Shown here: piece after piece, positions 2,576 to 53,853 of the stretch
How the letters are laid out: each line of letters begins with the position of its first letter
Position numbering within the stretch: position 1 is the stretch's first letter
Origin: Diploptera punctata
Lineage: Eukaryota > Arthropoda > Insecta > Blattodea > Blaberidae
Direction of reading: 5' to 3'
NCBI GenBank assembly: GCA_030220185.1
Contig: JASPKZ010001241.1
Location: 496,001 to 560,000 of the forward strand
DNA length: 64,000 nt
Program-made: the position numbers and the translations under genes
Notes under the pieces: generated by a model
What the model saw: the letters and a program-made list of their open reading frames with translations, nothing else
Databases searched by the model: none
Told to the model about the DNA's origin: nothing

Positions 2576-2914
2576 ATTATTCTTAGAATATTTATTAAAC
2601 CAATGATGGTTAAACCCGCCATCTTCATGAACATTTTAACATTTAAGCTCAGATAAACTTATTGCTATATTTAAATATGTTCTTAATTCATCCAGTGTTG
2701 TTTACATCTTTCTCTATCTCAGTGTCTTCAGGCGTATACTAGAGTACCTTTTTTAGTAAATGATTTAAATTCATTATTGAGTCGATTTACATAATTATTT
2801 CGATATGTTTGAATATATTTTACAATAGTGGAATGCAGGCTTTCACGGCCGGTAATCATGGTAGTAAAAGGTTCCGGGCTATGTGGCCGTGGTCTATAAC
2901 TGGCTTTTCTTCCA

Positions 2915-2949
2915 GACGTTTCTCCCTCAACTGCGGAGGGCATCTTCAG
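2915..2949 (-). ncRNA. Hammerhead-like core, left arm of P1
   Basis: Reverse strand: CTGAAGA, one extra T, a stem II built on CCCTC/GAGGG, then GAAA, CG, T and C. It is the mirror of the core in the right arm. ACGT around the cleavage position is self-complementary, as in minimal dimeric hammerheads. Confidence 0.6.
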
Positions 2950-3016
2950 TGGCGAGCGCTAGAAGCTGTTGTTTCCCTGTCTACGACAGGCAAACAACAC
3001 CTTCTAGCGCTCGCCA

Positions 3017-3051
3017 CTGAAGATGCCCTCCGCAGTTGAGGGAGAAACGTC
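3017..3051 (+). ncRNA. Hammerhead-like core, right arm of P1
   Basis: C3-U4-G5-A6-A7-G8-A9 (3017-3023), an extra U, stem II CCCUC/GAGGG, G12-A13-A14-A15.1 (3044-3047), C-G, then U16.1-C17 (3050-3051). Stem I is short: CCA before the core pairs with UGG after it. The bases required in hammerhead cores are present. The extra nucleotide before stem II and the short stem I leave activity unproven. Confidence 0.62.
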
Positions 3052-3119
3052 TGGAAGAAAAAGCCAGTTATAGACCACGGCCACATAGCCCGGAATCTTT
3101 TACTACTATATTTTACAAT

Positions 3120-4633
3120 GTTTTGAACTTTTATCCATTCAGGAATATCAACAATTATCTTTTTAACCTGCCTACTTATACCTAAAAGAGGACGTAAAAA
3201 TCAATTTGTGCAACTTGTAATTTTATTTTACGTCTAGAGTTCCAAATCTATTTTCCCTGCTCTCTTACAGGGAGGATTTTGCAGTTACATTTTGTAGTCA
3301 TAATTTAGTTTTTATGGACGTTTTCCCCCCAAACTCTGTTTTGAATATTTCAGACATACTTTTATACTTTTGTACTTTCAACTTTCTAATATGTTTTATT
3401 TCAGAAATTAAGCGTCGAATGTAATTAAATTCGGATACTTTTAAAATATTATATCCGTCCAATTCTAAGGATGGTTCTACTCTTATTTCAATTGGATTAA
3501 AAATTAACCCTCATGATTAATGTTTAAACTTAGTTTAAGTTAAACCGTATTAAGTGTTAATCTTTAAAAATAAAAATAAGGCACTCTCACAATAGTAGTG
3601 CCATGCAAGAGTCAATTTATGTCGAAAAAGAGATGTGTGATAACACAAACATACCTATGCACTTTAGTGGAAGAATTGACAATTTTAAAGAAATTGAAAG
3701 AAAAATAATTCTTTAGCAGATATGCAATTTACAAAGAAATGGCAAACATAATTTCCCATCCGATAGGGATGACATCTGCATTATCTTCTTCGTTTGGAAT
3801 TATTAAATCCATAGAATAAGAATCACATTGTAAATTCAGAACTTCAATTACAGTAATTCACATGTTTTTTATTTTATATCAATATTATTTTTAATAATAT
3901 CTAAATTTGTTTTACCAAGGATTATTTATATGCCTTGGACTTTGATTTATTGGCAAATTTTATTTTTGTTCTTTTCTTGAAATTATCATATTTCACGTTC
4001 AGTCTGTAATGGTCTCATTCAAAGTATCCTACTTTATAACAATAATTATTTATATGTAATAGGGACTTGGTCTGTATTTATGCATCCATTTATATTTTCA
4101 AAAGTAAGATCAAAATATTTGTATGTTCCTTTTGTCTGTAATTTCTGTTTCTATTTATTTATTTTATTCTATTATAATTGAATCAACGATAAAAACATAA
4201 TTTTGTAAACAATGCATTTGTATACAAATACTGCGAAATTAATATTTACATGTGTCTATAAATAATCCGAAAGAATAGCCAACATTTGTGTTCTTTTTTT
4301 TTCCGAATTCGTGTACCGTCATTAAAGTTAAAACGTACTTGAAACAAAATAACGTTGGGAAAGTTAAACTCAGTGTACTGCAGATATCAGGTTTAAATTG
4401 GTTTAATTTAAACCAAGGTTAATCTATTTTAAAGGGCAGTGATTGTAGGTATATATTTTACAACAAGTGAGCGAATTTGTAAAAGGTCAAAGTTATCTCA
4501 CCAAAGGCCATATTAATGCCGTATGGATGATAGAAATTTAAGGCTCCCATCTTTCTAGACAATCGAGACTTGATGTCATCAGGGTTAACATTACTTCTTA
4601 ACGACAGCCATACCCATAAAATAGTCACTTATA
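3120..4633. other. AT-rich, nothing recognised
   Basis: No coding frame, RNA or recurring repeat was recognised in these 1.5 kb. Frequent short A/T runs only. Confidence 0.5.
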
Positions 4634-4914
4634 CTCCAGCCACTGGATCTCCAGTTCTGACGTTTTCACGACAGTGTTGCTGATATAGATATTCAGTGGG
4701 AGGCACCGCTTTATATATGCAGTTTGCAGAAATGCAAGTGACAAGATCTCAGCAATTACAAACCTTACTAGAGCGCTACAGCAGCGTCAAGAACAGTTGT
4801 TGGTTGTGGCAGATATCTACTCCCAATTCAACTATTTCCTTATTGGCAGTAGAGGGCGAGTTTCTCACCCCCGTACAACCTAAACGTCAGAGCCGGAGAT
4901 CCAGTGGTTGGACT
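4634..4914. mobile_element. Small TIR element (MITE-like)
   Basis: Left end CCACTGGATCTCCAG..CTGACGTT and right end AACGTCAG..CGGAGATCCAGTGG are inverted copies over nearly 30 bp with a few mismatches, enclosing about 220 bp without transposase. That is the layout of a non-autonomous DNA transposon. The superfamily is not assigned because a clear target-site duplication was not found. The forward frame 4696-4941 inside it has no family features. Confidence 0.6.
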
Positions 4915-5449
4915 TTAGCACTAATTTCCGTTACAGGTTGAATCGAACCCAGGGCCATGGTATCCTGAAAATATATGAATCAGTTTAAAACTCCGAACTC
5001 CACCGGGACTCGTACCTCCCGGCTTGTAGCGTATTGCCCCAGAAACGTATCTGGTACCGATATATTTAAATGTTACGTAATATTTTAATGACATTTTAAT
5101 AATCATTCATAAAGACGTTTCTCAACAACGACTGTCGTTGAGAATCTATACATTGACAAAATATTCAAAACATGGTTCAAATGTTATTAACATTTATGAA
5201 GAAGGGGTACAAATATCTCATTAGTTTAGTCTAAATAACATATTTCCTACTTTACAGTGTTTAAACCCAATTAATACTGTTGGCATGATCTCTGGACATC
5301 AATGAAGTATTAATATTTTTTAATCTGATAATTAAACTTGCAGCTTAATCAGTAAGAGTATGATCCCTGACAGCTTGATTAACGTAATGTTACTCCTAAT
5401 AAGAGGATTAGTCTTCATTCTCTATAGGAAAATATACATTTCTTCATAA
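4915..5449. other. No feature recognised
   Basis: AT-rich; includes a short inverted repeat CGTTTCTCAACAACGAC/GTCGTTGAGAA near 5115-5143, too short to classify. Confidence 0.45.
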
Positions 5450-5598
5450 TCAGTTGATTGGCGCTTACTTGATGAAAATCCACTTTTATAAATATAAACG
5501 AAACCTAAAATTTCATATGATTTTCATATTTATTACAATAGAAATTCGTAACAGCTGTTTCAGTACTTTGTACCTTCTTCAGACGAATTTATCATGAC
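5450..5598 (-). mobile_element. Solo PLE terminal repeat
   Basis: On the reverse strand this matches the terminal repeat that follows the PLE at 34 kb: CTGAAGAAGGTAC, GAAACAGCTGT, AAATATGAAAATCA, then GATTTTCATCAAGTAA and CAACTGATTA. No PLE coding sequence remains next to it, so it is a truncated or solo end. It shows what the 35 kb repeat looks like without hairpin P2, and so serves as the uninterrupted comparison copy. Its left neighbour is the family F palindrome. Confidence 0.75.
5542..5590 (-). ncRNA. Hammerhead ribozyme motif, best formed in the window
   Basis: Reverse strand: stem I AAATTCGT pairs with ACGAATTT over 8 bp; between them lie CTGAAGA, an extra A, stem II GGTAC/GTACT with an AAA loop (closing G-U), GAAA, the self-complementary CAGCTG and U-U at positions 16.1-17. 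All catalytic core bases of a type I hammerhead are present. Hammerheads are established in the terminal repeats of Penelope-like elements. The unusual points are the extra A after A9 and a stem III that can only form through pairing with a second molecule or as a loopless hairpin. Confidence 0.72.
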
Positions 5599-7045
5599 TA
5601 TTTAACTCATGCCCCAAATGGGACTCAATGACCAATTACATTTCAATGAATTTTAATTTTGATTTACAACCAATTACAGTCGTTTTTCACATCGAATTTT
5701 GCACTTTCATTCTATGAACTGGCTCCCAGATTGCATATACTGTGCACGAATGTAACCAGATACTGCTTGCGAGGTATAATAGAAAAACATTCTTAGCAAT
5801 TGATTATACCACAAAAAAAAAAGAAACCAGTGTTTGCACTTTCTTAAACTTATTATTTTCCAGGTATTACCGTTCCAGGAAAATATAATTAACATAAGCC
5901 TATTTACATCATAGAACATTAGAAATTAATTAATTAATAATTGGTTATAAACAGTTTCATGTGTTTCATTTTTTCCCCACTAGGGTGCATTCTTACAACA
6001 TTGCGATACTTTGGCATTAAATAATATGATCTGGTTGCAGCGACGAACAAATAAAGCATACCAAACGTTTCTCATTTGTTTACAAAAATCACTGTTTACA
6101 TTAAATATATAAAAATGTTAAAATAAATGTATTAAAATAATGATTTGTGAGTAAACAGCTTAATTTTATTCGTTAAATAGTCCTAACAAATGCCACTCTT
6201 GATTTCCGAATTATCATAAGTAATGCCACGAGTGATTTCCAAATTATCGTTAAATTCAGGACTCACTAAGTGAGGAGTGAATTTATGTAGAGAATTTGGA
6301 AATCAAGAGTGGCATTTGTTAGGAATATTTAACGACTAAAATTAAGCTGTTTACTCACAAATCATTATTTAACTATAGTCATTTAAATATTTATATATTT
6401 AATGTAAACGGCGATGTTTGAAAACAAATGAGAAACGATTGGTACGTTTTTTCTTCCTTTGTTCATCACTGCAACCAGATCATATTATTTATTGCCAAAG
6501 GATCGCAATATTGTAAGAATGTACCCTAGTGGAGGAATGTATAACCAACATTATAGGCATTAATTAATTTCTGATCTCGTATGATATAAATATATCAGTT
6601 ATATTTTCTGCAACGTCATTTCGTGCAAAATAATTCGTTTAGGAATGTGCAAACAGTGGCTTCTCCTTTGTGTGGTATAATTAATTGCTACAAATGTTTT
6701 TATATTATCTCCTACATGCGCTATGTGCTGACATTCATGCACTATAATATATACAATCTGGTAGCCGTATTTCTTAGAAAGTCAGTCACTGCAAAAAATG
6801 CTATGACCTATTCAGAATGTTAAAAAGGAGCAGCTTTCTTAATATGATAAACTTTACTTGATAAATTTGATGCGAAACACGGTTGTGATTGGTTGTAAAT
6901 AAAAAATCATTGATATGTGATTGGTCATTGACTCCCATTTGGGACATCAGTTAAATAGTCTAGATAAATTCACTCGTCACTTCATGAGTCGTGAATTTAT
7001 CGATAATTTCGAAATCACTCGTGGCATTACTTATGATTAATTAAA
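5599..7045. repeat. Repeat family F copy 1, large palindrome
   Basis: 5599-6212 and 6288-6985 are inverted copies of each other (for example CATGCCCCAAATGGGA against TCCCATTTGGGACAT, GATCTGGTTGCAG against CTGCAACCAGATC, CCACTCTTGATTTCC against GGAAATCAAGAGTGG). The junction 6213-6287 and the right end to 7045 both carry the family terminus CACTCGTGGCATTACTTATGAT. It reads as one whole unit on the reverse strand next to a truncated unit on the forward strand. No protein was recognised. The frames at 5707-5919 and 6623-6823 are mirror images from the two arms. Confidence 0.8.
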
Positions 7046-8184
7046 CTTCTAACTTAATCAGTAAGAGTATAATCCCTGTTAGCTGGATTAACAGAATGTT
7101 ACTCCTAAAGAGACGATTAGTCTGCATTGTCTTTAGGAAAAATATACATTTCTTCCTCAAAAAATCCTCTCGGGGAGGATACAGCTCAAAATATGTGAAC
7201 TATAAAGGGAGGTTCACTATATTTACTATTTAAACACGATATTAACTTAACCTTTGAGGCTCCGTATTCACGAGTAAAATGTATTCTGATGTGTTGCAAA
7301 TAAAGTGTAGAGAGTGAATATAAAAATATAGGTTATCATAATTGTGGAGAGCTGTGTTATCAAGCTCTAAGCGTCACATTTTAGGGCAGGTTATGTACCA
7401 TTTGCTACCAACATAACGCGAGCGCATTACGTTGCAAATGTGCACATTGCCATGTAATAACATGCCATGATACTGTTGAGGGGAGACGTATGTACTGAAT
7501 TTTAAACACGTGTTAAAGTTCATGTGTGATATGCAAAGATTATTTAAAATATGACACAAACTAAACATTTACCCAAGTTAGTATACAAGGATATGAGACA
7601 AATTATTTTGTTACGTGAGAATAGCTTGAAGATAAAGTATTTCATTATTAATATTTTATACAAATAGCTACATAGTTTTCTGTTTTAATTATATTTACAA
7701 TATTTAAACTCAGATTATTTTAAATGTCATTCTGAGAAGTCTCTTCTTAGCCCATGTTCATTTTCTTTATATATATATATATATATATATATATGAATAG
7801 GGAACCCCTCAGGGGTCCTCATCTAGGGGATATGTGAATGGCGACCACAAGGTGCCTAAGCTGTGCAAAACATTTCTTCCACTTACTTGTGTTTTGCACT
7901 CTTTTAACTTTACTATCTAACCTCTCTTGGTTAACTCTTGTTTTTTCGACCCCGACGCTATTAGGGCATCCGAGGGTCTAGGGAGTCCTTCCTTTTTTCC
8001 ATTTCTTCTTTCCTTTATTTTCTTTTCTTCTCCAGAAAAGCCTGACCAGAGGCTATAAGATGGCAGCCCCATCACTGGTCTTGCCTTCCTTTGGCCAGCA
8101 ACCAATCGAAGGGACTATTATTATGCTTTCAAGTCTTATACGAGAATTTCCATAAGGGAAAATTTTCTATAGGATCGTAACAGG
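7046..8184. other. No gene recognised; (TA)n at 7768-7794
   Basis: A run of TA dinucleotides lies at 7768-7794. The rest gives no coding frame with family features. A small palindrome GGGAACCCCTCAGGGGTCC follows the TA run. Confidence 0.45.

Positions 8185-14526: not shown

Positions 14527-14556
<30 letters not shown>
14527..14556. repeat. (TA)n microsatellite
   Basis: Fifteen uninterrupted TA units directly in front of SINE1 copy f. Confidence 0.95.
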
Positions 14557-14558
<2 letters not shown>

Positions 14559-14559
14559 T

Positions 14560-14898
14560 CCACCGCTGTGGTCTCGAGGTAGCGTTCTGCCTTGTCACGC
14601 AGCGGGCCCGGGTTCGATCCCCAGTCGGGACAGTTTTCTGGGTGAGGTTTTTTATCGGGGTTTTTCCTCACCTGTAAGACAAATGTCAGGAAAACTTTAA
14701 GGTCCAAACGGTCCCCGAAATCATATGGCCATCATCATCATCCTTATCATTATCATCATCATTATCATCCTTCACCGGTGTGGAAAGCAACGGGAAGCTA
14801 CCACACATTCAATTCCCTAGTAAAGCTGCAAGCATAGCATGAAAATGCTATGACTGCAGTGAATGACCTGCCTTCGGGCAAAATTACTATGGATGGAT
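14560..14898 (+). mobile_element. SINE1 copy f, near-consensus
   Basis: A complete copy: CCACCGCTGTGGTCTCGAGG, GCGGGCCCGGGTTCGATCCC, CCTCACCTGTAAGACAAATG, an interrupted CAT stretch, CACCGGTGTGGAAAGCAACG, the GCATAGCATGAAAATGCTAT stem, and the terminal ATTACTATGGATGGAT. Abuts copy g in opposite orientation after only six bases. Confidence 0.92.
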
Positions 14899-14904
14899 AT
14901 ATAT

Positions 14905-15220
14905 ATCCATTCATAGTAATTCTGCCCGAGGGCAGGTCTTTCACTGCATTAGTAGCATTTTCGCGCTATGCTTGCAGCTTTACTAGGGAATTGTAGGTGT
15001 GGTAGATTCCCGTTGCTTTCCACACCGGTGAAGGATGATGATATTGATGATGGCCATATGATTTCGGGAACCGTTTGGCCTTAAAGATTTCGTGACATTT
15101 ATCTTACAAGTGGGGAAAAACCCCGATAAAAAATCTCAACCACAAAACTGCCCCTACCGGGATGGAACCCGGGCTCGCTGCGTGACAAGGCAGCACGCTA
15201 CCTCGAGACCACAGCGGTGG
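14905..15220 (-). mobile_element. SINE1 copy g, inverted partner of copy f
   Basis: Complete on the reverse strand from CCACCGCTGTGGTCTCGAGG (ending at 15220) to the terminal TAATTCTGCCCG complement at 14918. Together with copy f it makes an inverted repeat with arms of about 320 bp and almost no spacer. Confidence 0.92.
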
Positions 15221-15224
15221 TCTC

Positions 15225-16156
15225 ACAGATAGCATATGTGTGTAAAAGACCTGCTTTATTGATGGCATGGCTAACATAAGTTACAAATAGATGTGCAATC
15301 AATGTTAGATAATATTGTGAAACTATTATCAGTACAGCTTTATCTGTTTGCTTGCGACATCATGCAGTATCTGAATCAATTTGAAAATACACTGAAAGCT
15401 CCTTATTCACGTTTTCATTATTAGCGGGTTAAAAATTTGCGACACAGTTCCTGTATTCACCACTAAAAATTGCTTTATTTGCGGATCCACTAAGTATGTT
15501 AGAACGATTTGTATATTTATTAACGCATCGGTAACTTTTTTTTTTGCTACAGGCCCGTGCCAAGACGGCTTTTACAAAGAGCGATTCAGAACTAATGGGC
15601 AAATAATTTATTAATTATTAATATGTAAGTTAAACAAACCTTATTGTCACTAAGCCTATAATTCGTTTTTGAAACCACCGCCGTCGTATTTCACGTACCG
15701 CTATATCCGTTGATAAATGCCACCCTCGCGACGACCGGTGTTTTATTGTTTCAACTTGTCATTCGTTGCAAAAAAAAATTATTGAGAAACACGTTTGTTG
15801 CCAATTTATAATGTCGAGAGTAAAAGAAACTAAACTTAGTTCTGAAGTGGAAAAATATAGTGTTGCCGCTTAAAGTAAAAATAGAAATGCTTTACCGTCT
15901 ACGCGTTGTGCGAGTCGTTTACGTCTGTATCACGCTGTTTCACAGTTAATGAATAAACTGTACAATTCATTAAGTAATCCGAAGACAAAATAAGGAATTA
16001 CATAGTAGAATTCACAGCTGAATATCAATCTGAATTGAAAGACCTTTTAAAAGCGGCAAAAATGGGGGTAAAATACTAAGTTCTTTAAGCCCTTGACTAT
16101 GCTCGACAGTATTAATTAAAGGAAAGTGTTAAAAAATTCTGTCACAATTGATTTTA
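15225..16156. other. No feature recognised
   Basis: AT-rich. A forward frame around 15400-15620 includes NCFICGS-like codons but shows no domain I can name. Confidence 0.45.
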
Positions 16157-17215
16157 TTTTGACTATTTAACTCATGCCCCAAATGGGAGTCAATGTCCAA
16201 TCACGTTTCGATAAATGTTTTATTTTCAACCAATCTCAGTTGCTTTTCACCTCGATTTTATCTGTTTAATTTTATTACTTTAAAATCAAACTCCACCTTT
16301 TTAACATTCTGAATAAGTCAGAACATTATTTTACAGTGACTACGTGCGACTACCTGATTGTATATATAATGCACGAATGTTAACACGTAGTGCTTGCGGC
16401 ATATAATATAAAAACATTTGTAGCATTAAATTATACCAAAAAAAACAAATGAAACCACTGTTTGCACTTTCTTAAATGAAATATCTTCCAGGAAATAACG
16501 TTGCAGAAAAATGTATAATTGACATATTTACATCATAGGAGATCAGAAATTAATTAATACCTATCCATCGATATTAATTCTGCCCGTGGGCAGGTCCTTC
16601 ACTGCAATCATAGCATTTCCATGCTATGCTTGCAGCTTTACTAGGGAATTATAGGTATGGTAGCTTCCCGTTGCTTTCCACACCGGTGAATGATGATGAT
16701 GATGATAATGATAAGGTTGATAATGGCGATGATGGCCTTATTAGTTTGGGGACCGTTTGGGCCTTAAAGTTTTTATGACATTTGTCTTACAGGTGAGGGA
16801 AAACCCCGATAAAAACTCACCCAGAAAAACTGCCACGACCAGGGATCGAACCCGGGCCCGCTGCGTGACAAGGCAGCATGTTACTCGAGACCACAGCAGT
16901 GGACATAATACCTATAATGTTGGTTATACATTTCTCCACTAGGGTACATTCTTATAATATTGCGATCCTTGGGCAATAAATATTATGATCTGGTTGCAGT
17001 GATGAACAAATGAAGTGTAACAATTTGTTCTCATTTTTTCAAACATCACCGTTTCCATTAAATATATATATATATATATATATTAGTTTAATTGTATTCG
17101 TTTAATAGTTATAACAAATTCTTAATTTCCAAATTCTCTAGATACATTCACTCCTCAGATCGTGAGTAGTGAATTTATCGATAATTTGGAGGTCACTCGT
17201 GGCATTACTTGTGAT
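16157..17215 (+). repeat. Repeat family F copy 2 (single unit, interrupted by SINE1 h)
   Basis: Aligns with the left arm of F copy 1 from GACTATTTAACTCATGCCCC through ACATTTGTAGCATTAAATTA, GATCTGGTTGCAGTGATGAAC to the terminus CACTCGTGGCATTACTTGTG. It is a single non-palindromic unit of about 0.72 kb once the SINE (16565-16905) and a (TA)n run at 17061-17083 are set aside. No recognised protein. Confidence 0.78.
16563..16902 (-). mobile_element. SINE1 copy h with target-site duplication
   Basis: Full length on the reverse strand and inserted in F copy 2. The 10-mer taatacctat occurs at 16555-16564 and again at 16906-16915, a clean target-site duplication, so F copy 2 pre-dates this SINE. Confidence 0.92.
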
Positions 17216-21940: not shown

Positions 21941-22308
21941 TTAGAAGGGGAAAATGTGAACAGTTTTCTAGAAAAGTAGATGATGTAAATTAAAACTCTG
22001 CCAAATAATTAACCTTGATTCTAATTATTAGACCTAATTATCTGGCCGTTAAATTAAGCATAATAAAAACTGAATTTTTTTAAATATTTTGGTCATATCA
22101 TTAACAATATATCTAATAATTATTTCAATACCTCTCACTTCGTATCTTTGTGTGAAACAGACTTATGCATTCATACTATTGAACGTAGCCCTAAGGACCG
22201 TGAACCCGACAGCCAGGAATCCCCCACACTTCCGTCAGACTTCCACCAGACTTCGGTCAGATATCATCCTCGCTTACGACATACTTCTGCCAGGCCTGCG
22301 CCATAACT
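21941..22308. other. No gene; degenerate minisatellite edge at 22215-22308
   Basis: AT-rich up to about 22190, then words such as TTCCGTCAGACTTCCACCAGACTTCGGTCAGA that look like decayed units of the 11 bp minisatellite that follows. Confidence 0.55.
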
Positions 22309-23602
22309 CGGCCAGACACTAGCCAGACACTAGCCAGACACTCGCCAGACACTCGCCAGACACTCGCCAGACACTCGCCAGACACTCGCCAGACACTCGC
22401 CAGACACTCGCCAGACACTCGCCAGACACTCGCCAGACACTCGCCAGACACTCGCCAGACACTCGCCAGACACTCGCCAGACACTCGCCAGACACTCGCC
22501 AGACACTCGCCAGACACTCGCCAGACACTCGCCAGACACTCGCCAGACACTCGCCAGACACTCGCCAGACACTCGCCAGACACTCGCCAGACACTCGCCA
22601 GACACTCGCCAGACACTCGCCAGACACTCGCCAGACACTCGCCAGACACTCGCCAGACACTCGCCAGACACTCGCCAGACACTCGCCAGACACTCGCCAG
22701 ACACTCGCCAGACACTCGCCGACACTCGCCTGACACTCGCCTGACACTCGCCTGACACTCGCCTGACACTCGCCTGACACTCGCCTGACACTCGCCTGAC
22801 ACTCGCCTGACACTCGCCTGACACTCGCCTGACACTCGCCAGACACTCGCCAGACACTCGCCAGACACTCGCCAGACACTCGCCAGACACTCGCCAGACA
22901 CTCGCCAGACACTCGCCAGACACTCGCCAGACACTCGCCAGACACTCGCCAGACACTCGCCAGACACTCGCCAGACACTCGCCAGACACTCGCCAGACAC
23001 TCGCCAGACACTCGCCAGACACTCGCCAGACACTCGCCAGACACTCGCCAGACACTCGCCAGACACTCGCCAGACACTCGCCAGACACTCGCCAGACACT
23101 CGCCAGTCACTCGCCAGACACTCGCCAGACACTCGCCAGACACTCGCCAGACACTCGCCAGACACTCGCCAGACACTCGCCAGACACTCGCCAGACACTC
23201 GCCAGACACTCGCCAGACACTCGCCAGACACTCGCCAGACACTCGCCAGACACTCGCCAGACACTCGCCAGACACTCGCCAGACACTCGCCAGACACTCG
23301 CCAGACACTCGCCTGACACTCGCCTGACACTCGCCTGACACTCGCCTGACACTCGCCTGACACTCGCCTGACACTCGCCTGACACTCGCCTGACACTCGC
23401 CTGACACTCGCCTGACACTCGCCTGACACTCGCCTGACTTTCGCCTGACTTTCGCCTGACTTTCGCCTGACTTTCGCCTGACTTTCGCCTGACTTTCGCC
23501 TGACTTTCGCCTGACTTTCGCCTGACTTTCGCCTGACTTTCGCCTAACTTTCGCCTAACTTTCGCCTAACTTTCGCCTGACATCCGCCTGACTTCCTCCA
23601 GA
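22309..23602. repeat. 11-bp minisatellite, about 117 units
   Basis: Unit GACACTCGCCA and its variants. Blocks in order: CCA-type units to 22720, CCT-type to about 22830, CCA-type to about 23310, CCT-type to 23435, then GACTTTCGCCT, three AACTTTCGCCT units, and decayed units to 23602. One 10-nt unit lies at 22711-22720 and one point variant (CCAGTCACTCG) near 23104. Each unit has a CpG, so this is a GC-rich island in AT-rich DNA. Because 11 is not a multiple of 3 and the reverse strand unit lacks stops, all three reverse frames stay open; these are not genes. Confidence 0.97.
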
Positions 23603-32945: not shown

Positions 32946-33619
32946 TCTATTAGTAAGATACAAATTTCTGTTAGGTTTCTAATATCACACAAATTATTCA
33001 GATAGTATGAGGAATAAACTGTAATAACTCACACTAACATCACATTAATCCTTTCTGTTTTACATTGGTTATTAGGTCACATTTCAGTTAGATTTTATAT
33101 TGCTTCAATTAGAAAATAAACTTTAGAAATTTCCCCTTTATAAATCCGAAATATGAATGTCGAGGACAAAAAATGGGAATGACGTAATATCTACGTCACG
33201 AATGTATTTTCTATTTTATACTTAGTAATTTTTCAATAGGCCTACTAGGAATAATTTAAATGTCGTGAAAAAATGTTAAATATACTTTTCATTTTCAAAA
33301 AACGGAATCATAACATTTAAGGCTAATGAAACTATTAGTTTTCCAACGTGGTTAACTAGCCAAGACCTTAAAGGGATGATTCTATAGATCAGAAGTCCAA
33401 GATTTGAATCTCGCTGAAAACCGGGGTGACAGTTGTATTTAAAATACGTAGGAATACGATCGTGTTAATTGTATAGAATTTTATGGATAAGATGAATTGA
33501 GATAGAATTGAAATACAAAATAGATTAATGGGAGAAGATAATAATAAATAGATTAGCCAAAAGTGGATGTTTTATTCTAAATTGGCTTCAGTTCTAATGA
33601 ACGAGAAATATATAATAGT
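32946..33619. other. No gene recognised
   Basis: A weak tRNA-like string (AACTAGCCAAGACCTTAAAG..CAAGATTTGAATCTCGC) lies near 33354-33415. Nothing else is assigned. Confidence 0.4.
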
Positions 33620-33883
33620 CAATGTATTAATTAAATAAAAATAAAACGTAGTTTTATTTGATTTTCATATGTATTATATAATTCAGTGACAGCTGTTTCG
33701 GTACACTGTACCTTCTTCAGACATGTTAACAAATTATAATTGTGTTCCTACTAATCTAAGCAAAAATACAACAATATTTATTTATTTTTTTAATTTAACA
33801 AGGGGATTCAATCAAATCAAGTTGAGAATTTAACAGTTTGTTACTACTTTTCAATTTATTAATTTCTACAGCCTCCATCGTTA
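33620..33883 (-). mobile_element. Inverted 3' end of a PLE (terminal repeat plus coding tail)
   Basis: Reverse complement of 34815-35060: it contains the last codons after the GIY-YIG domain (VEINKLKSSNKLLNSQLDL), the 3' untranslated stretch, the hammerhead block and the AAAACTACGTTTTATTT end. It joins head-on to the forward reverse-transcriptase remnant at about 33884. Terminal repeats in inverse orientation are well known for Penelope-like elements. Confidence 0.85.
33683..33726 (-). ncRNA. Hammerhead-like motif in the left PLE1 repeat
   Basis: Reverse strand CTGAAGA, extra A, stem II GGTAC/GTACC (loop AGT), GAAA, self-complementary CAGCTG, then T-C. The core is identical to 34977-35009. 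Flanks ACATGT and ACTGAA pair over only two bases, so stem I is weak. Confidence 0.6.
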
Positions 33884-34487
33884 GCGATGGTTTGATTATG
33901 GGTGATCCGTTGAGCCTCTTTTGGCAGAGATTTTTATGGATGACTTAGAACAAACCATACATAAGAATGTATTAGCTATAAATGTTCTATTTTGGTATCG
34001 TTATGGTGATGATGTCATAGCAGGCTTCACAGGAACCAAAAGACAATTGAATTCCTTTTTAAATTTTATTAATAACATTCACAGAAGTATTAATTTCACA
34101 ATGGAATTAGAAACAAATAATAGTATAAATTTCTTGGATTTATCAATAAAACACATTGATAATAAGTTTGAGTTTGATATCTTTCACAAACAATCTCATA
34201 CTGATACCACTATCCATAGTTCTTCTCTTCACCCATATACTCATAAGATGGCAGCCTTTAATAGTTACATTCATAGACTTTTAAATCACCCTCTTTCACC
34301 CTTGGAATATAATAATGAATTGAATATTATTAAACAATTAGCTATTAATAATAACTACGACCCTAAAATTATAGAATATTTAATTAAGAAAGTTCATTAC
34401 AAAAAAGCAATTAACAAAGTTTTTCCTTTACCCAAAGAAAACAAAGAAATATATCGTAATGTCATACATAGGCCCACTTTCAAATAA
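33884..34487 (+). pseudogene. PLE1 reverse transcriptase, C-terminal part
   Basis: Begins in one frame with TMGDPLS-like codons (IMGDPLS near 33895) and shifts to AEIFMDDLEQTIHKN. The catalytic motif is YRYGDDVIAGF (about 33988-34020), followed by LNSFLNFINNIHRSINFTME, the conserved SINFLDLSIK, HPYTHKMAAFNSYIHRLLNH and KIIEYLIKK. This order is that of Penelope-like reverse transcriptases. The N-terminal fingers are missing and a frameshift at about 33920 leaves it inactive. The frame stops at 34485. A further piece (ISKYFQRLNINVAFKTNKT) reads in another frame up to 34560. Confidence 0.88.
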
Positions 34488-34614
34488 AATATCTAAATAC
34501 TTCCAAAGGTTGAACATCAATGTGGCATTTAAAACTAATAAAACGTTACAACATATAATAAAAACAATAAAACCAAAATAAAAAAAAATAAAAATTATCA
34601 GGTGAATATATATA

Positions 34615-34905
34615 ATGAAGTGTGGCACATGTGACAATGTCTATATAGGACAAACTGGTAGACCTTTTATCTCTCGGATAAAGGAACACATGAGAGCATA
34701 TAACAGAAATTTAGAATATTCAAAATATGCTAACCACCTATTCCAATCTAATCATTGTTTCGATCCAAATTTTGAAATTCTACATGTTTGTGATAAGGGT
34801 AAGAAGTTAGATCTTTTGGAGGCTGTAGAAATTAATAAATTTAAAAGTAGTAACAAACTGTTAAATTCTCAACTTGATTTGAATGAATCCCCTCTGTTAA
34901 ATTAA
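34615..34905 (+). pseudogene. PLE1 GIY-YIG endonuclease domain
   Basis: CGTCDNVYIGQTGRPFISRI contains the YIG half of the motif and the following catalytic arginine region; KEHMRAYNRN gives the conserved EH; LDLLEAVEINKFKSSNKLLN is the usual C-terminal helix. The GIY half is damaged by a stop just upstream (IYIM). The domain nicks DNA to prime insertion in this class. It is out of frame with the RT, so it is dead. The CX2C before YIG is a typical PLE feature. Confidence 0.87.
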
Positions 34906-35109
34906 AAAATTTAAATAAATATTGTTGTATTGTTGGTTAGATCAGTTTGAACACAATTCATAATTTTTTAACATGTCTGAAGAAGGTACAGTGTACCGAA
35001 ACAGCTGTCACTGAATTATATAATAAATATGAAAATCAAATAAAACTACGTTTTATTTTTTATATAATTAATGAATATGGATTTTCATCAAGTAAACACC
35101 AACTCAATT
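34906..35109 (+). mobile_element. PLE1 right terminal repeat (continues after 35361)
   Basis: Contains the hammerhead block, ATATGAAAATCAAATAAAAC, GATTTTCATCAAGTAAACAC and CCAACTCAATT. The solo copy at 5450-5598 continues directly to GATTA, which here is found only after hairpin P2, at 35362. So P2 split this repeat. Confidence 0.82.
34971..35016 (+). ncRNA. Hammerhead-like motif in the right PLE1 repeat
   Basis: CUGAAGA (34977-34983), extra A, stem II GGUAC/GUACC with loop AGU, GAAA (34998-35001), self-complementary CAGCUG, then U16.1-C17 (35008-35009). Identical to the left repeat. Stem I only two pairs. Confidence 0.62.
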
Positions 35110-35165
35110 ATATTATTTTTGGGTCTGGACATCTTTACCTCAATATTAATGTTGATTTGTTCTTG

Positions 35166-35199
35166 GACATGTTTCAAAACAATTCTGTTTTATCGTCAG
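35166..35199 (-). ncRNA. Hammerhead-like core, left arm of P2
   Basis: Reverse strand CTGACGA, one extra T, stem II AAAAC/GTTTT with loop AGAATT, GAAA, then self-complementary ACATGT overlapping the last A, and C. All core bases are kept. Confidence 0.6.
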
Positions 35200-35220
35200 C
35201 TTTCCCAGAGTCTGGGAAAG

Positions 35221-35255
35221 CTGACGATTAAAACAGAATTGTTTTGAAACATGTC
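35221..35255 (+). ncRNA. Hammerhead-like core, right arm of P2
   Basis: CUGACGA (35221-35227), two extra U, stem II AAAAC/GUUUU, GAAA (35246-35249), CAUG, U16.1-C17. Differs from the left arm by one inserted base. Stem I cannot form beyond one pair from local sequence. Confidence 0.55.
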
Positions 35256-35639
35256 CAAGAACAAATCAACATTAATATTGAGGTAAGATGTCCAGACCAA
35301 AAATAATATAATTAAAATAACCTCAAAATATAACTTCTTAAAATTAAATACCAACTCAATTGATTAGTTAGTTTATTGTTCCTTTACTATTTCATTATTT
35401 ATATGAGGTTTCTTCATATTGACGTAATATCTGCTTAATATATCTAAATTGCTTATTTTAATTGATAATGTCCTGTCTCTAACTTACATCCAGTTAGGCC
35501 GGTGTGTTTATCTTGTATTATCCCTGGTTGTCTTTACTGATGAAGATGGAATACTGACAACTAGAAACCAGCGAGGCCGGATACTATAATACTAAATTAA
35601 TATGTTTCACAGTTCTTGTGATCCGCCCAAGACATTCAT

Positions 35640-45272: not shown

Positions 45273-45681
45273 TAGCCCACTACGCGGCTTTCCTTCTTGA
45301 ACTGTATAACACGTATTGCATACAGGGTGTAAATGAATTATACCGCACATACTTAACTGCTTACTGATAGGTATTATACAAGTAATGTGAGATACGGAAC
45401 TAATGACTTACGAGGGAAAATGGGCGAGTTATGGGGAATAAAGTAATCGAGAAATTGATATAGATAAATCAAAAGGAGAGCAAAGTAGGAGAGGAAATTA
45501 TACTAGAATAACTTCAGATCTTAGTGTTAATTCCGAGATCCTAATTGCGAACATTTCTTCATCAACGTTTATGAAATATTGGGTTATAAAATTCCTTAGA
45601 ATGTCGAACTTAGTAGATTATTGCACGCCACTGCACTGCTTACTGTAGAATCGGCGCTATGAGAGCCTCAGTTTAGAGTAA
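45273..45681. other. No feature recognised
   Basis: No coding or repeat content recognised. Confidence 0.4.
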
Positions 45682-46023
45682 ATAAATAATAGTTTTAAAA
45701 AACTAGAACAACACGCTTTATTAGAAAACCAAACTAAAAAAATGAAAAATAATTTTAATTTCCAACACGCTTGGGATAAATAACTTTACCATCAAAACGT
45801 AGGGTGCTCTTTATCAATTAATACATTTGATAATAAACACATATTGGTAAAAGTAAAGTCTCTAAGAAGAAAATGTAAAAATCATAAAAAGCACACCATG
45901 CTTTTGATGGTAAAATTATTTATCCCAAGCGTGTTGGAAATTAAAATTATTTTCCATTCTTTTAGTTTGGTTTTATACTAAAGCATGTTGTTTTAGTTTT
46001 TTAAAACTATTATTTATTTTTTA
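45682..46023. repeat. Long hairpin (arms about 120 nt), MITE-like
   Basis: Left arm words AATAATAGTTTTAAAAAACT, AATTTCCAACACGCTTGGGA, TAACTTTACCATCAAAA and right arm inverses TTTTGATGGTAAAATTA, TCCCAAGCGTGTTGGAAATT, AGTTTTTTAAAACTATTATT flank a loop of about 100 bp. No hammerhead core and no clear target-site duplication, so it is kept apart from P1-P3. Confidence 0.78.
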
Positions 46024-48265: not shown

Positions 48266-48295
48266 AAGTGAATAAATAACAAAATAAACTAATCA

Positions 48296-48573
48296 CAGAT
48301 TTTCACCTAGACGCATGGCTGTAATTATTCATCCTAAATGATTAATCGATGAATAAGTTAGGATTTTACGAATTGAAATTTGGTTGTAACCTCGTACGGC
48401 TCCTACCATAATTGAGGTAAGAATGATTAAAACAATAAACCCATTAAAATTTATTGTATATGAAATTAATATTAATAGGGTGATTTTTTGAATAGTTATG
48501 ATAATAAAACTATTATTCCATCTTAATCCTTCTATAACTCTAGGAAATCATCAGTCCAATTCTAAATTCACAA
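48296..48573 (-). pseudogene. nad2: Mitochondrial nad2 fragment (numt piece 2, inverted)
   Basis: Reverse strand with the mitochondrial code: FPSVMEGLSWNNSFIMMTIQ, KITLLMLISYTINFNGF, GAVRGYNQISIRKILTYSSI and NHLGWMITAMRLGENLW. This is the conserved middle of NADH dehydrogenase subunit 2. It is opposite in strand to the cox3 piece, although both are on the same strand in insect mitochondria, so an inversion or separate capture took place. Confidence 0.8.
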
Positions 48574-48599
48574 TATTTCAACAATCCTTATTTATAAAA

Positions 48600-48946
48600 T
48601 ATAGACCAGCTTAGCCCTATCTATATTAAACTATCCAATATCAGAAGATAATGAAATGTTGGATCTTTACTAGGACTATGCCTAGTAATTCAACTTATTA
48701 TTGGAATTTTCCTTGCAATGCACTATTGTCCTAATATTGAATTAGCCTTCAATAGAGATAATCGTATTTGTCGAGATGTAAATTATGGCTGGCTTTTACG
48801 AACCCTACACGCCAACGGAGCCTCTATATTCTTTATTTGTATCTAGTTACACATTGGACGAGGAATATACTATGGATCCTTTAAATTGTTATACACTTGA
48901 TCAGTAGGTGTTTTAATCTTATTTTTAACTATAGCTGCAGCATGGA
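48600..48946 (+). pseudogene. cob: Mitochondrial cob fragment (numt piece 3)
   Basis: [72 protein letters not shown] and GVLILFLTM are diagnostic of cytochrome b, including the first haem-binding histidines. A TAG replaces the Tyr codon before LHIGRG, stop even in mitochondrial code. A small insertion near 48646 disturbs the start. Confidence 0.93.
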
Positions 48947-48949
48947 ATG

Positions 48950-49435
48950 TAAGTAAATATTTTTAGTTAATAGTTAATCGTTGAGCTAGAGGTTTAAGAG
49001 GTAGGTTTTTGGGTGAAATTTAAATTTTAATTTATTTCTAAGTATTTTTGATGAGGCTATGAAATCTAATTAATAGACTAGGATTAGATACCCTATTATG
49101 TATGAATTAAAAGCTTATACTGGAGTAGTAATAGTTATGGACTTGAAACTTAAAGAATTTGGCGGTATCTTAGTCCATTTAGAGGAATCTGTCCCGTAAT
49201 CGATAATCCACGTTAAACCTTACTTACCTTTATGGTTTGTATACCGCCGTATATGAAAATCCTTTTAGGGTTGATTTTCTAGAAATTTTATAAATAGTAT
49301 TTCAGGTCAAGGTGCAATTTATGTTTAAGTGGTGATGAATTAGTTTCGACCTAATCCTTTGGTATTAACTTACCTTAATTCTATTTTGGTTGAAACCAAA
49401 ATAGAGGCTAGAACTTAAGACTTAAAGAAGCTCCT
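48950..49435 (+). pseudogene. rrnS: Mitochondrial 12S rRNA fragment (numt piece 4)
   Basis: Contains the hallmark insect 12S words CTAGGATTAGATACCCTATT AT, CTTAAAGAATTTGGCGGTAT, TAGAGGAATCTGTCCCGTAA, TCGATAATCCACGTTAAACC and TTCAGGTCAAGGTGCA. It reads in the rRNA sense on the plus strand, opposite to the natural relation with cob. Confidence 0.95.
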
Positions 49436-49599
49436 CTATTTATAATATATATACATATATACATATATAATGTGCACATTAATAAAGTTTGCTGTCATGT
49501 TTTTTGCATAATAGTCATTGACTCGTTGTTTGGAAATAACGTACATAGACTCCAGTAGGAAAAATGTTTTGAGATCTAGAGATTAACAACTTTGTTTAA

Positions 49600-50342
49600 G
49601 GGAGGACGTACCCCTTTAGCCATTAAAAATGTGGCATATTTCAATTTTTTCTCAGCAACAATGCTGGTTACAGAAATGAATTTGATATGTGATATCTATA
49701 TTACAATGTAAGCATGTTTGTTTACTTAAGTACAATCTAACTTCAGTCGTTATGGTCAATTAAATATTCAAAATGTCAGCTGAAAATTTAGCATTCTTAC
49801 CGTATTCCTGATAATGTTTTCTATACTTCAATATATTTTAATAATTTTTGTTTTATTTTACTCAGTAATATTACTGCTACAAAATATGTTACAATTGCTT
49901 AATTATGTAGAGTACAAATATTTTATTTTTCATTTTAAATTCATACATACTCAGTTTCTTAAAATGTGCATTAAAAATATTTTTAAAAAATATAACTTAA
50001 TAGGTACATTACTAATTGTAGTATATTTCATTAATCTCTGTAAACTACACATACGTGCAAAATTCCATCTCAGTATCTTGAAAACTTTGGAAGTTATCAG
50101 GGAAACCGTATTGAAAAATTAAGTTACTGAAAACAAGTGACAAACTTACCGAAGATATAGGTGCGGTCTAGAATTAAAGGGCTCACTCGAGTGACAGCAT
50201 TGCAAATTTTTAAACATAACTCGAAAAGTAATAGATATATCAATTAAAATCTTTCACTAATTTAAAGATGAAGTTTCAGTCTATATGACAAAAAATAAAT
50301 TGACAAATTACTTTTTTTCACCCTCAAAGGTGTAGGTCCCCC
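49600..50342. mobile_element. TTAA-flanked non-autonomous DNA transposon
   Basis: GGGAGGACGTACCCCTTT at the left is the approximate inverse of AAAGGTGTAGGTCCCCC at the right. TTAA flanks both ends (49596-49599 and 50343-50346), the target of piggyBac-type transposases. The 743 bp interior holds only AT-rich, low-complexity frames, such as 49814-50122, which I do not call a gene. Confidence 0.6.
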
Positions 50343-50346
50343 TTAA

Positions 50347-51654
50347 ATTCCAGAAAAAAACATCAGCAGATTTCGCTTCGTTAGTTATTAAAACAAAATG
50401 AACTAAAATTATGTAAAACAAAAATTTAAAACCCTTTAACTAATAATAAGGTTTCTGCTCATGTTCTATTTTTCCAGCCACCGCTTCTATTCCGAATACA
50501 TAAAATAGAACACACCAGTATTGTTTTCGTCGCATTTGTGTGACGCAAGGTATTAGTTATTTACTCTACTGTATGTCTCGCTTCACTCCATGTGGAGTTC
50601 GCTGAGGACGAATTGGAGCCAAGACAGGTTTCCCCGGTGAATTATCCTGTTTTCCACCGAAAATTGTTTTCACTTCTGCATGCTTACATAATTCCTTTCG
50701 ACTAATTTATTTATATTTCATATCGTCCTGTCATGGAGCGAGAGGCCTGATCAGTCGGCAACTATGTAAATTATGGTCCTTAAAAATAGTGCTTCATTTT
50801 ATGTGATCCCTAGATCTTGAATTACGCCAGACAGTTTACGTATTTTGAATTTTCTTCAAGCTTTATTCAATTATGGGAGTCTGCCTATAACGGGTCTTGT
50901 ACTATTATAGTCTTTAACAGAACACATCATCTCCCGAAAACATTTCGAGAGAGACCAAAGCGTCCTAAATCAATTACAAAAAAATATTCATAATTATAAG
51001 TTTGTATTATATGCCGTTTTACAATATTTTTCTCCCTCTTAGGTAACGGTGAACATGCGTTCTTAACTCCTTGCTTCAATCCAGAGGCTGCCAAGCCATC
51101 AGTATTCCCAAGATCAAACCAAATATACAATGCTACATAACGCAAAATTAGCTTTTCTCTTTACCTTACACTAGAGTAAAGTAAAACTTGCCAACTGGAA
51201 ATTCTAGCAGCTGTATTCTTACATTCTGTGCAGAATTTTTATATTCTTATACAGAATGGTAAAACAACTCATTGGAACATTCAGAGGATGAATATGGGAG
51301 CCAAATTTACTAATATGTTTCTTGACCAAACTACATATATTTACATGGTTTACCCATTAGTACTTGTCATAGCGTTAACTGAACTTACTAAGTATATTGT
51401 CTTGTTTCACTTGCAGGTGTATAAATTGTTCTCAGTTAAATTCAGTAGAAATGTGACATCTGCTTAACAATAATTCTTTAGACAATTTACAGGAAATTGC
51501 GAAACGTTAGTTATAGCTTCAGCAAAACAATCAATTAATTTGTTGCGAAAATGATTATAAGTCTATTCACTTTTTTGTACAGAAAAACATCTGATAAACA
51601 CATGACGGCACCTTTGACCGACGTAACACGTAATTAATTCAACAACCTAATTCC
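50347..51654. other. No feature recognised
   Basis: 1.3 kb without a recognised frame, RNA or recurring repeat. Confidence 0.5.
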
Positions 51655-52062
51655 GCACTTACAAGTATTTGAGAATAAAGTACTTAGGACAATTTTTGGA
51701 CCAAAGAGAGATGAACAGACAGGTAAATGGAGAAGACTACATAATAATGAACTACATGGTCTTTACAGGAAGCCAGATATAATAAGAACAGTTAAGTCTC
51801 GTAGACTGCGATGGGCAGGACATGTTGCACGTATGAGGAATGAAAGACTTCCATGGAAGCTTCTTGTAGGAAAGCCAGAGGGAAAACGCCCAGTTGGTAA
51901 ACCAAGAATGTGGTGGGAGAATAACATTAACTATGATTTGAGGGAAGCAGATTATACAGGGAATGATTGGAAAGCATTAGCTCAGGATAGGGATGTATGG
52001 AGAGCTTATGTCCGTGCGGCCATGAACCTACGGGTTCGATAGTACCAGTGAGTAAGTAAGTA
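51655..52062 (+). mobile_element. LINE-G copy 8, most complete tail
   Basis: Open frame from KVLRTIFGPKRDEQTGKWRR through LHNNELHGLYRKPDIIRTVK, LRWAGHVARMRNERLPWKLL, KPEGKRPVGKP, WENNINYDLREADYTGNDWK to AQDRDVWRAYVRAAMNLRVR and a stop at 52040. The tail is GAGTAAGTAAGTAA. About 125 codons without interruption, so it is a young copy and the best reference for the family in this window. Confidence 0.92.
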
Positions 52063-52211
52063 ATTAAATTCCACACATAACCGGTTTACATTAATACGTC
52101 ACTATTGCCAAAAGTAAGTACACATGAATTACTATATATAAAACATTAATTTAGGCCTGTTTATTTGCCCCTTAAACGTTGTAAATGACCTTCTGCATCA
52201 TCCGATCATAT

Positions 52212-52231
52212 ACACACACACACACACACAC
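52212..52231. repeat. (CA)n microsatellite
   Basis: About ten CA units. Confidence 0.95.
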
Positions 52232-52429
52232 GAGTATATATTAACTTGCTTTGCTCAATGTCAAAATAATTTATTATAACACCGAAAAAGCGTCACTGCT
52301 ATAAGGTAAAAATATTCTCTTTAATTTGCTTACTTGGTATAGGAGCAACTAGATGGCAGTGGAGAGCGAGTTCCCGCTACTTCTCGTAATAATAGAAAAT
52401 ATAAGAAAAATAATAAATGTTTTGCTAGA

Positions 52430-52502
52430 TTTATCTGGTAGCATAATTGGTAGCGCACTTGAATATCAATCTAGAGGTCCGGGTTCAAATCCCGTCCAAG
52501 CA
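52430..52502 (+). repeat. tRNA-like relic
   Basis: A-box-like ATCTGGTAGCATAATTGGTA GCGC and B-box GTCCGGGTTCAAATCCCG at tRNA spacing. Acceptor stem not convincing; the anticodon loop is uncertain. Confidence 0.5.
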
Positions 52503-53244
52503 TTTATATTTCTTATCATGGCATATACATATATACCCCTAAAGTTATAGGAGTCTGCCTATTTAACTCAAGATTATCCATGCCATAAATCGTCGTGGTT
52601 CTCACATTTCTTCTTAATTGAGTAATTTAACTAATTGTTAGAGTTTACAGTACTGGACATTTGACAACGTTGCTGGATGGAGTGCAGGGTGTTTACTCTG
52701 TACAATTGAGTACAAGCAGACATATCATACCGGTACAAAAGAAATCCTAAGTCCCAATGCAGGGCCGGACGTTGACACATCAACTACTTTACAAAGCAAA
52801 ATTTAAACCATTCTTATTTACGCTACGCAATATAAGTTTTTTTAAAGAATCATGCAATTTTCAGTTTGTTATATTTTACGACATAAGGACTGGACGGAAA
52901 CTTGCTCCTTATATTAACGATTTTGAAGCGTTATTCAAAGTTCAGTATTACACATTCAATATGATTATCTTGCATTAAAAACTCTACATCCGATTTATAT
53001 CAGATTTTCTAATTGCCCGCCATCATTCTGGAAATAGACATCGCATCTTCTAGTCCAATTTTGCCAACACGTTAAAAAATAGAACAAGTTTTTTTTATTG
53101 CGTTTGCAGGTGCAAAATATGTTATTGAAGAAACACTGTCAATCACACGCGCTCTGTAAACCAAGCCCTACATACGACCCCAGCAGAATAATATTCAAGG
53201 AGTTAACATTAAAGTTTTAATAATTACAAAACAGTACCTGATAT
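52503..53244. other. No feature recognised
   Basis: No coding or repeat content recognised. Confidence 0.45.
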
Positions 53245-53610
53245 CTCAGCGTCCTCAATAATGTGTAGTGTTGTTTTATTAGGAGGCCTTTCGATAAATT
53301 AATTTTCATCTTCTGCTTTCATTTTGGTACTGACTGTTGTTGGTAATTATTTGGTACAGCGGGTTTATATTGCTGGGTACGTTCTCATTGAGCAGTTGTT
53401 TATTTGTGGTTTCTGGTAATTAATAACTCTTCGAGAACGTTGATTTTTTTATGTATTGTTTTCTCTATGCAGGATCGATAATACATTGTCTATTGTGTTG
53501 AATTAATATCCTGCTTCTACTACGAGTATATATTTTAAAAAAATTGGATTTACCCTTAATCTTCAGGAAATCTCTGAAATTTTCATTAAATCTTGTCGTG
53601 AAGTTTCTAG

Positions 53611-53853
53611 TATACTTTTATAAGATTCATGATACGTTCCGTTGAGATATTGTTAAAATTATAATATAAAATTATGGAATATTCACCTGAAAGGTCCGTC
53701 TCCTCAACTTTGTTAGTTATTCAACTGTGGAGCTTTCGGGACCAGTTTTGAATCCTGTTGATGATGGGACTAGTCCCGAAAGCGCTAAGTTAAATAACTA
53801 ATAAAGTTGAGAAGACGAACCTTTCAGGTGAATATTCCATAATGTTATATTTT
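53611..53853 (+). mobile_element. Hairpin element P3 with 10 bp target-site duplication
   Basis: Arms 53659-53742 and 53770-53853 are inverted copies (TATTCACCTGAAAGGTCCGT against ACGAACCTTTCAGGTGAATA; CTTTCGGGAC against GTCCCGAAAG) around a 27 nt loop. About 48 nt at the left (53611-53658) is one-sided. aagtttctag flanks the insert (53601-53610 and 53854-53863). The right arm and loop are nearly the same as the PLE2 terminal repeat at 58182-58290, so the hairpin is a folded-back PLE end. Confidence 0.87.
53758..53787 (+). ncRNA. Hammerhead-like motif in P3
   Basis: UUGAUGA (C3 changed to U), extra U, stem II GGGAC/GUCCC closed by UA, GAAA (53778-53781), the self-complementary AGCGCU including A15.1 and U16.1, then A17. 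Only one arm has the full core because the CUGA side lies in the loop. Confidence 0.5.

Follow-up and report, generated by a model that had tools for sequence, protein, structure and literature searches.

Short palindromic insertions in the genome of Diploptera punctata as likely minimal products of Penelope-like element insertion

Introduction

A stretch of 64,000 nucleotides from the insect Diploptera punctata (assembly GCA_030220185.1, contig JASPKZ010001241.1, positions 496,001 to 560,000; hereafter, the window) carries three short palindromic insertions, called P1, P2 and P3. The organization of these insertions and of their relatives elsewhere in the genome makes it likely that they are minimal insertion products of Penelope-like elements (PLEs), in which both target strands would have primed on the leader of a PLE mRNA and the two like complementary DNAs (cDNAs) would have been joined head to head. 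Each palindrome is probably a one-off PLE product and not a member of a class of tiny elements.

The process can be proposed as follows. The PLE protein would cut the two strands with a stagger of about 10-16 bp, and reverse transcription would be primed by both target 3' ends within the first part of the PLE reading frame, at an outer start site for one of them (generating the arm with a tail) and about 34 nt further in for the other. The cDNAs would run toward the mRNA 5' end and cover the 5' leader only, that is, the pseudo-long terminal repeat (pseudo-LTR) with its hammerhead-like core. Since PLE copying would start near the front of the mRNA, a single-unit mRNA would yield nothing but its leader. 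One cDNA would usually reach or approach the mRNA 5' end and the other, in P1, would stop 15-47 nt short. Joining of the two like cDNAs, either by a template jump from the mRNA 5' end to the 3' end of the other cDNA or by microhomology end joining, would produce a palindrome with one tail and a target-site duplication (TSD), and read-through transcripts would give the same product with long arms, for instance the palindrome L094 described below. The traits on which this proposal is based can be read in the DNA itself: TSDs, near-constant outer ends, a one-sided tail, variable centres, mirrored variants and a stop of the P1 arms at what appears to be a TATA/initiator.

Three insertions with one architecture

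P1 occupies 281 bp (positions 2827-3107 of the window) between the two copies of a 12-bp TSD (2815-2826 and 3108-3119). Its left arm (2861-2981) and its right arm (2979-3107) carry the pseudo-LTR or 5' leader in sense on the minus and the plus strand, respectively, and their hammerhead-like cores start at 2949 (minus) and 3017. The right arm ends at the inner start site, nt 85 of the open reading frame (ORF), and only the left arm is prolonged into a tail (2827-2860, minus strand), which corresponds to the start of the PLE reading frame, approximately nt 85-117. P2 (35110-35349, 240 bp) is also flanked by a 12-bp TSD (35098-35109 and 35350-35361) and is composed of a palindrome (35110-35313), whose centre lies within 35201-35220, and a tail on the plus strand (35314-35349). 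P3 (53611-53853, 243 bp) shows a 10-bp TSD (53601-53610 and 53854-53863), a minus-strand tail (53611-53654, the inner limit being uncertain by a few nt) and a palindrome (53655-53853), both arms of which match the pseudo-LTR of a PLE of the window, PLE_B (58178-58296).

Palindrome self-alignment gives identities of 95% for P1, 97% for P2 and 82% for P3. Folding as single-stranded RNA (P1 alone, P2 and P3 with short flanks) resulted in z values of -32.8, -26.5 and -16.5, respectively, when compared with shuffled sequences, and none of 200 shuffles reached each of them. The tails are confined to one side and comprise about 34 nt in P1, about 36 nt in P2 and 42-50 nt in P3. The last insertion splits, on the minus strand, a PLE GIY-YIG reading frame (53864-53996, the other part being at about 53540-53610), and the left TSD copy lies within this endonuclease frame. 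The P3 flanks joined through one TSD copy, an empty-site test inside the window, give an uninterrupted frame similar to that of the PLE located at 57352-58017. The palindromes, TSDs and one-sided tails of P1, P2 and P3 are real. A previous examination of the same DNA without database searches (the sequence-only reading) had described one architecture at the three sites and had seen in them the same kind of product made from different PLE ends; alignment and folding confirm the former, and the latter also holds, the products being of different PLE families.

Copies in the genome

All genome-wide searches were carried out in one assembly of D. punctata (3.12 Gb). The P1, P2 and P3 queries yielded 390, 1586 and 2964 first-look candidates, respectively; the best 40 of each were scored, and 36 P1-type, 21 P2-type and 29 P3-type distinct copies were read. 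L013, L018, L034, L037 and L043 (each the same insertion as another copy) and the reverse duplicates L021 and L027 were left out of the P1 counts, as was L050 from the P3 counts.

A full-length or near-full forward match accompanied by a reverse match is present at each of the 40 scored P1 places, and the reverse match omits the tail in 40/40 scored P1 places and in 40/40 scored P3 places. Similarly, the tail is found on one side in 19 of the 21 P2 copies read, the other two being compound. The sequence-only reading required TSDs in copies elsewhere in the genome, and these do occur genome-wide: TSD scores of at least 9 were obtained for 35/36 P1 and 25/29 P3 copies (swapped-flank control, 0/36 and 0/29) and, without swap control, for 19/21 P2 copies. 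The duplications vary in length (12-16 bp in 32/36 P1 copies, 9-14 bp in 25/29 P3 copies) and their A+T content is 80% in P1 and 78% in P3. The P1 outer ends are near-constant across the 36 copies.

The exact 35-base core of P1 is present at 4234 places in the genome (2164 + 2070), and its reversed control at none. Among the first 100 of these matches, 46 form 23 close head-to-head pairs, with 32-197 nt between cores, and there are no close tail-to-tail pairs. The rest are two L094 arms, four cores in a tandem array, one extra core on C32 and 47 lone cores; an inverted second arm is clear in 11, partial in three and lacking in six of the first 20 of these lone places. From this small sample, taken in contig order, it is estimated that about two thirds of approximately 73 P1-core loci are palindromic. 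A 23-mer representing the upstream-joined (read-through) form, whose counts are not directly comparable with those of the 35-mer, is found at 449 places (control, 0). Within the first 100 of them, 23 pairs are head-to-head, with distances of 30-8700 nt, and tail-to-tail pairs are lacking up to 10 kb. This read-through set is a continuum of arm lengths in one orientation.

The tandem array mentioned above (L096, G000:C9:407300-408200) has a period of 88 bp and about nine units that resemble the P1 leader around the core (85-97% identity). It is satellite- or retrozyme-like and an object of another kind than the palindromes; the first 100 core places contain no other tandem cluster.

Start sites and template

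The sequence-only reading had attributed the palindromes to PLEs and, as judged by sequence matches, the arms of P1 and P3 are of PLE origin: those of P3 match PLE_B, and those of P1 match L094. The latter is a 2.2-kb palindrome of the P1 parent PLE, 94.5% self-complementary, which contains reading-frame pieces, a tail on one arm and, by eye, a 12-bp TSD. For one of its reading-frame pieces, 33 homologues were obtained, and three of these are insect proteins that bear the name GIY-YIG domain-containing; a 168-aa piece and PLE_B have 50% in common over 32 residues. A Pfam search of two L094 pieces at E 0.001 returned nothing, and a search of a plasmid collection with P1 gave no match.

The P1 ATG is located within CTGAAGATG. 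The tailed arm extends to nt 117 of the ORF and its partner to nt 85. The end of the tail falls in the published start region of an Anolis PLE (+111 to +118), an agreement that concerns position only and P1 only. Two separate initiations, at the two start sites published for a PLE, would fit. As the sequence-only reading had supposed, insertion was most likely due to the PLE machinery.

With respect to the inner ends, 33 of the 36 P1 copies were measured against a reference carrying the upstream sequence of L094; L016, L024 and L042, whose alignment ran through the loop, were excluded here and from the junction set. Counted from the A in TCATTC, the stop of the longer arm lies at -2 to +19 and that of the shorter one at +15 to +47. 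In 13/33 copies the left (tailed) arm is the longer, in 20/33 the right one, the tail being one-sided either way. L094 continues upstream past the stop of the short arms, and a TATA box, TATAAATA, is present about 30 nt upstream of TCATTC; among 20 lone P1-core copies, L091 alone also continues upstream. Judged by TATA spacing and the initiator consensus TCAKTY, the short P1 arms appear to stop at or just inside the start point of a promoter. Because the arms stop there, the P1 template was most likely an mRNA started in the pseudo-LTR. In the case of L094, the template was most likely a read-through transcript.

The sequence-only reading had also assigned CUGANGA..GAAA cores to the three insertions. 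These are clear in P1 and P2, but the P3 window copy is degenerate (UUGAUGA). In P1, C3 and G8 precede the ATG and GUC ends 29 nt from its A; the P2 motif has, by eye, a poor stem I. At gathering level, Rfam detected no hammerhead in the whole window, P3 region included. Scans of a solo P1-type arm and of the P1 and PLE_A/P2 regions, in which E values up to 10 were allowed, did not reveal one either. The matches below cut-off were mostly microRNA-hairpin look-alikes in two palindrome regions, together with two unrelated weak ones in the solo arm. The hammerhead-like cores appear to be simply part of the leader and, since the arms run through the presumed cleavage site, the template would have been uncleaved at that point.

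Junctions and the joining step

The P1 centre junctions are of 33 kinds in the 33 usable copies, and those of P3 of 22 kinds in 29, a set in which three copies aligned through the loop are still counted. Between 1 and 10 extra nucleotides are present in 14 of the P1 junctions; of the remaining 19, three are blunt and 16 show an overlap. In this group of 19, the overlap amounts to 1 nt or more in 84% of cases and to 2 nt or more in 58%, compared with 44% and 17% of simulated blunt joins. In P3, 21 junctions overlap by 1-6 nt, four are blunt and one has extra nucleotides, the other three being those aligned through the loop. According to the available text of one study, the R2 enzyme performs template jumps with added nucleotides (PMC8857657). 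The junctions described here would fit such a jump and end joining alike.

A different origin of the palindromes would be a snap-back, in which the 3' end of a cDNA folds and primes its own second strand. Self-priming of this kind was proposed for PLE palindromic junctions in a 2013 rotifer study, as far as its available text goes (PMC3846280), and the sequence-only reading had invoked the fold-back of a PLE terminal repeat. Snap-back could explain the tight loops of P1 and P2, the mirrored variants, the unequal arm lengths, the junction overlaps and the tail sequence on both sides of 2/21 P2 copies. However, copying the tailed arm would also copy the tail, which is left out of the reverse match at every scored P1 and P3 place whichever arm is longer, and the tail is one-sided also in the 13 of 33 P1 copies whose tailed arm is the longer. 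In addition, the non-tailed end keeps the inner start site. Snap-back is therefore disfavoured for P1 and P3, the compound P2 copies do not follow simple snap-back either, and as a general explanation it is improbable.

Apparently independent insertion events

The two arms of a copy are on average more alike than arms of different copies, the divergence being 2.5% within and 3.7% between copies in P1, and 5.6% and 8.3%, respectively, in P3. None of 5000 permutations reached either within-copy value. This comparison comprised 33/36 P1 and 25/29 P3 copies, three P1 and four P3 copies without anchor being excluded. None of 102 P1 alignment columns is side-specific, that is, the common letter is the same in left and right arms, and in P3 it narrowly differs in one column. 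The inner-variant class coincides in both arms in 35/36 P1 copies. Private variants are mostly present in a single arm (52 versus 10 mirrored in P1, 58 versus 5 in P3), as expected of mutations that occurred after insertion. Differing junctions, the greater likeness of the two arms of one copy and the near absence of inherited side-specific differences make the P1 and P3 copies look like independent insertion events. The tiny non-autonomous elements suggested by the sequence-only reading are thus not supported for P1 and P3, and P2 is less clear in this respect.

The 21 P2 copies are 95-98% identical to P2, and the changes common to at least two of them are three mirrored ones and one unmirrored. 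Their independence is less clear: because the centre is mostly common to the copies, P2 is the least certain of the three and might be a copied palindrome.

Several observations count against the proposed insertion mechanism. The parent PLE of P2 was not found in the searches, and 17/21 P2 copies share one centre, the other four having their own. A variant at column 139, near the hairpin tip, is common to L105 and L109 in one arm only; no other observation hints as strongly at a copied palindrome, although the change may instead be a recurrent one at this tip. In two of the 21 copies, L101 (C7785) and L119 (C833), the palindrome is bordered by tail sequence at either end. Both have a further leader arm past it and appear compound, and the outer right end of L119 is the inner start site, the whole being flanked, by eye, by a 12-bp repeat. 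With regard to P3, one junction recurs in 6/29 copies, and the longer-arm limit is broader than that of P1 (-22 to +14 of the chosen point, 7/29 at +1), with no clear initiator. In P1, the copy L030 has a weak TSD and an odd right end. The own partner is strictly the nearest arm in only 9/66 P1 arms (21 tied) and in 8/50 P3 arms (12 tied), so that the pairing is visible in the mean and not in most single copies. Moreover, all data come from one assembly, scoring the 40 best candidates per query biases the samples to palindromes, the start sites were published for an Anolis PLE in vitro, and the host is known here from DNA alone.

Regarding the compound form of L101 and L119, an interpretation as nested copies was dropped in view of the tail sequence on both sides and the further leader arm; longer or tandem templates are perhaps involved.

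The common P2 centre, the unmirrored variant shared by two P2 copies and the recurrent P3 junction would suit a self-propagating palindromic element, in which a master hairpin is transcribed and re-inserted whole, its arms being kept alike by conversion. The rest of the data argue against it: the P1 junctions are all different (33/33), those of P3 fall into 22 kinds among 29, P1 shows no inherited side-specific variants and P3 at most one column with a narrow difference, three common P2 variants are mirrored and four P2 copies have a centre of their own. Such an element is even less probable than snap-back.

Short size, inverted repeats and a TSD are also features of DNA-transposon foldbacks or miniature inverted-repeat transposable elements, a reading that is very improbable and already contradicted for P1 and P3, since TSD length varies, the tail is asymmetric, the arms consist of PLE leader and, in P1, a reading frame begins in the arm where that of a PLE is expected. 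Finally, inverted chimeras are a familiar artefact of assembly or amplification and a single assembly was used, but site-specific TSDs, near-fixed outer ends, the one-sided tail, arms that differ by 2.5-5.6% on average and the precision with which P3 splits a PLE reading frame make the chance of an artefact negligible.

Leader priming remains the preferred explanation, and we infer from these data that both strands would be primed in vivo, that mRNA would be the template and that a joining step would follow.

Relation to known systems

In L1 twin priming, both target strands prime on the RNA, which results in an inversion, and each of the two cDNAs represents a different part of this RNA. Priming of both strands is likewise proposed for P1-P3, whereas both of their cDNAs would cover the same leader.

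The inverted pseudo-LTRs of Adineta vaga Pen2a, with an optional 31-bp tail on one of them, a 9-10 bp TSD and a palindromic inverted junction, are described in the available text of PMC3846280, where head-to-head is also the commonest order of PLE copies in this rotifer. P1-P3 share with Pen2a the inverted pseudo-LTRs, the single tail, the TSD, the palindrome and the head-to-head order. However, the Pen2a copies described there have a PLE frame or captured sequence between the pseudo-LTRs and P1-P3 have nothing between them; furthermore, the present data point to two initiations and not to the self-priming proposed in that study.

For the Anolis PLE PAc, the available text of Frangieh et al. 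2024 (PMC11167929) reports that both strands are cut and extended in vitro, that the start region is 111-118 into the ORF and that two adjacent internal start sites delimit the tail. According to the same text, the hammerhead has C3 and G8 conserved before the start codon and its cut 26 bp downstream of this codon, and insertion needs no hammerhead cleavage. P1 is similar in its end positions, in a tail lying between start sites and in a core around the start codon. The Anolis work differs in being in vitro only, and its available text contains no description of double products joined head to head.

Metazoan retrozymes, as presented in the available text of PMC7229834, are small hammerhead-bearing elements for which mobilisation by PLEs has been proposed. 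P1-P3 resemble them in their small size, hammerhead-like cores and link to PLEs. However, retrozymes are described there as direct tandem repeats that give circular RNA, while P1-P3 are inverted pairs. An identity with retrozymes was rejected on the basis that the close inverted pairs are head-to-head in 23/23 cases and that P1-P3 contain no direct tandem monomers.

The sequence-only reading knew of no described class with this set of traits. Much of it, the presence of hammerheads in PLE leaders included, is in print, in the available texts of PMC3846280 and PMC11167929, but a leader-only PLE palindrome present in large numbers was not noticed in the open-access literature searched. Thus, the ingredients are known, and the new part, as far as noticed in that literature, is an abundant leader-only palindrome whose mechanism may be read from its junctions.

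Other PLEs and palindromes in the window

PLE_B comprises, on the plus strand, the 3' part of a reading frame (57352-58017), with a GIY-YIG endonuclease match (Pfam PF01541) of 21.5 bits, just below the cut-off of 22.6, and the downstream pseudo-LTR (58178-58296) that represents the source family of the P3 arms. PLE_A (33617-35060, plus strand) is a truncated reverse transcriptase/endonuclease frame between inverted pseudo-LTRs, arranged head-to-head as in P1-P3, with cores at 33720 (minus) and 34977 (plus); its sole TSD candidate is the 8-bp TATATAAT. The Pfam reverse transcriptase and GIY-YIG matches of both PLEs are under Pfam's own cut-offs.

An old long palindrome, possibly a PLE one, occupies 5489-7042 (1070 bp at 75% plus outer arms) and adjoins a PLE_A-type core at 5582 (minus). 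The 683-bp palindrome at 14549-15231 (84%) is an inverted pair of a dispersed repeat, also found at 16557 and 25957. Further palindromes are located at 45680-46019 (340 bp, 84%) and 54809-54932 (124 bp, 81%); a CTGANGA scan of the window revealed no core in either of them, and a TSD sought at the former gave none that was clear. The region 22204-23565 is a long array of short repeats, open in several frames on both strands, for which no function is implied.

Implications

The mechanism of PLE insertion is an open question, on which one in vitro study was noticed in the literature. Genomic leader copies provide a natural experiment in this respect: their outer ends would mark start sites, their inner ends the mRNA 5' end and their centre the joining step, while variants mirrored in both arms suggest that the two had one template in common. 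As evidence, these copies favour two initiations over the published self-priming, and predictions that can be tested follow for the start sites, the template and the junctions.

On balance, and by a small margin of confidence, we favour the view that leader priming of both strands is the usual course of PLE insertion in vivo, that most insertions would be dead-end palindromes and that full copies would need a read-through (tandem) transcript. If so, one mechanism would cover the tails, the inverted pseudo-LTRs and the palindromes of PLEs, and the leftover palindromes could be ready-made hairpin sources of putative small RNA against these elements.

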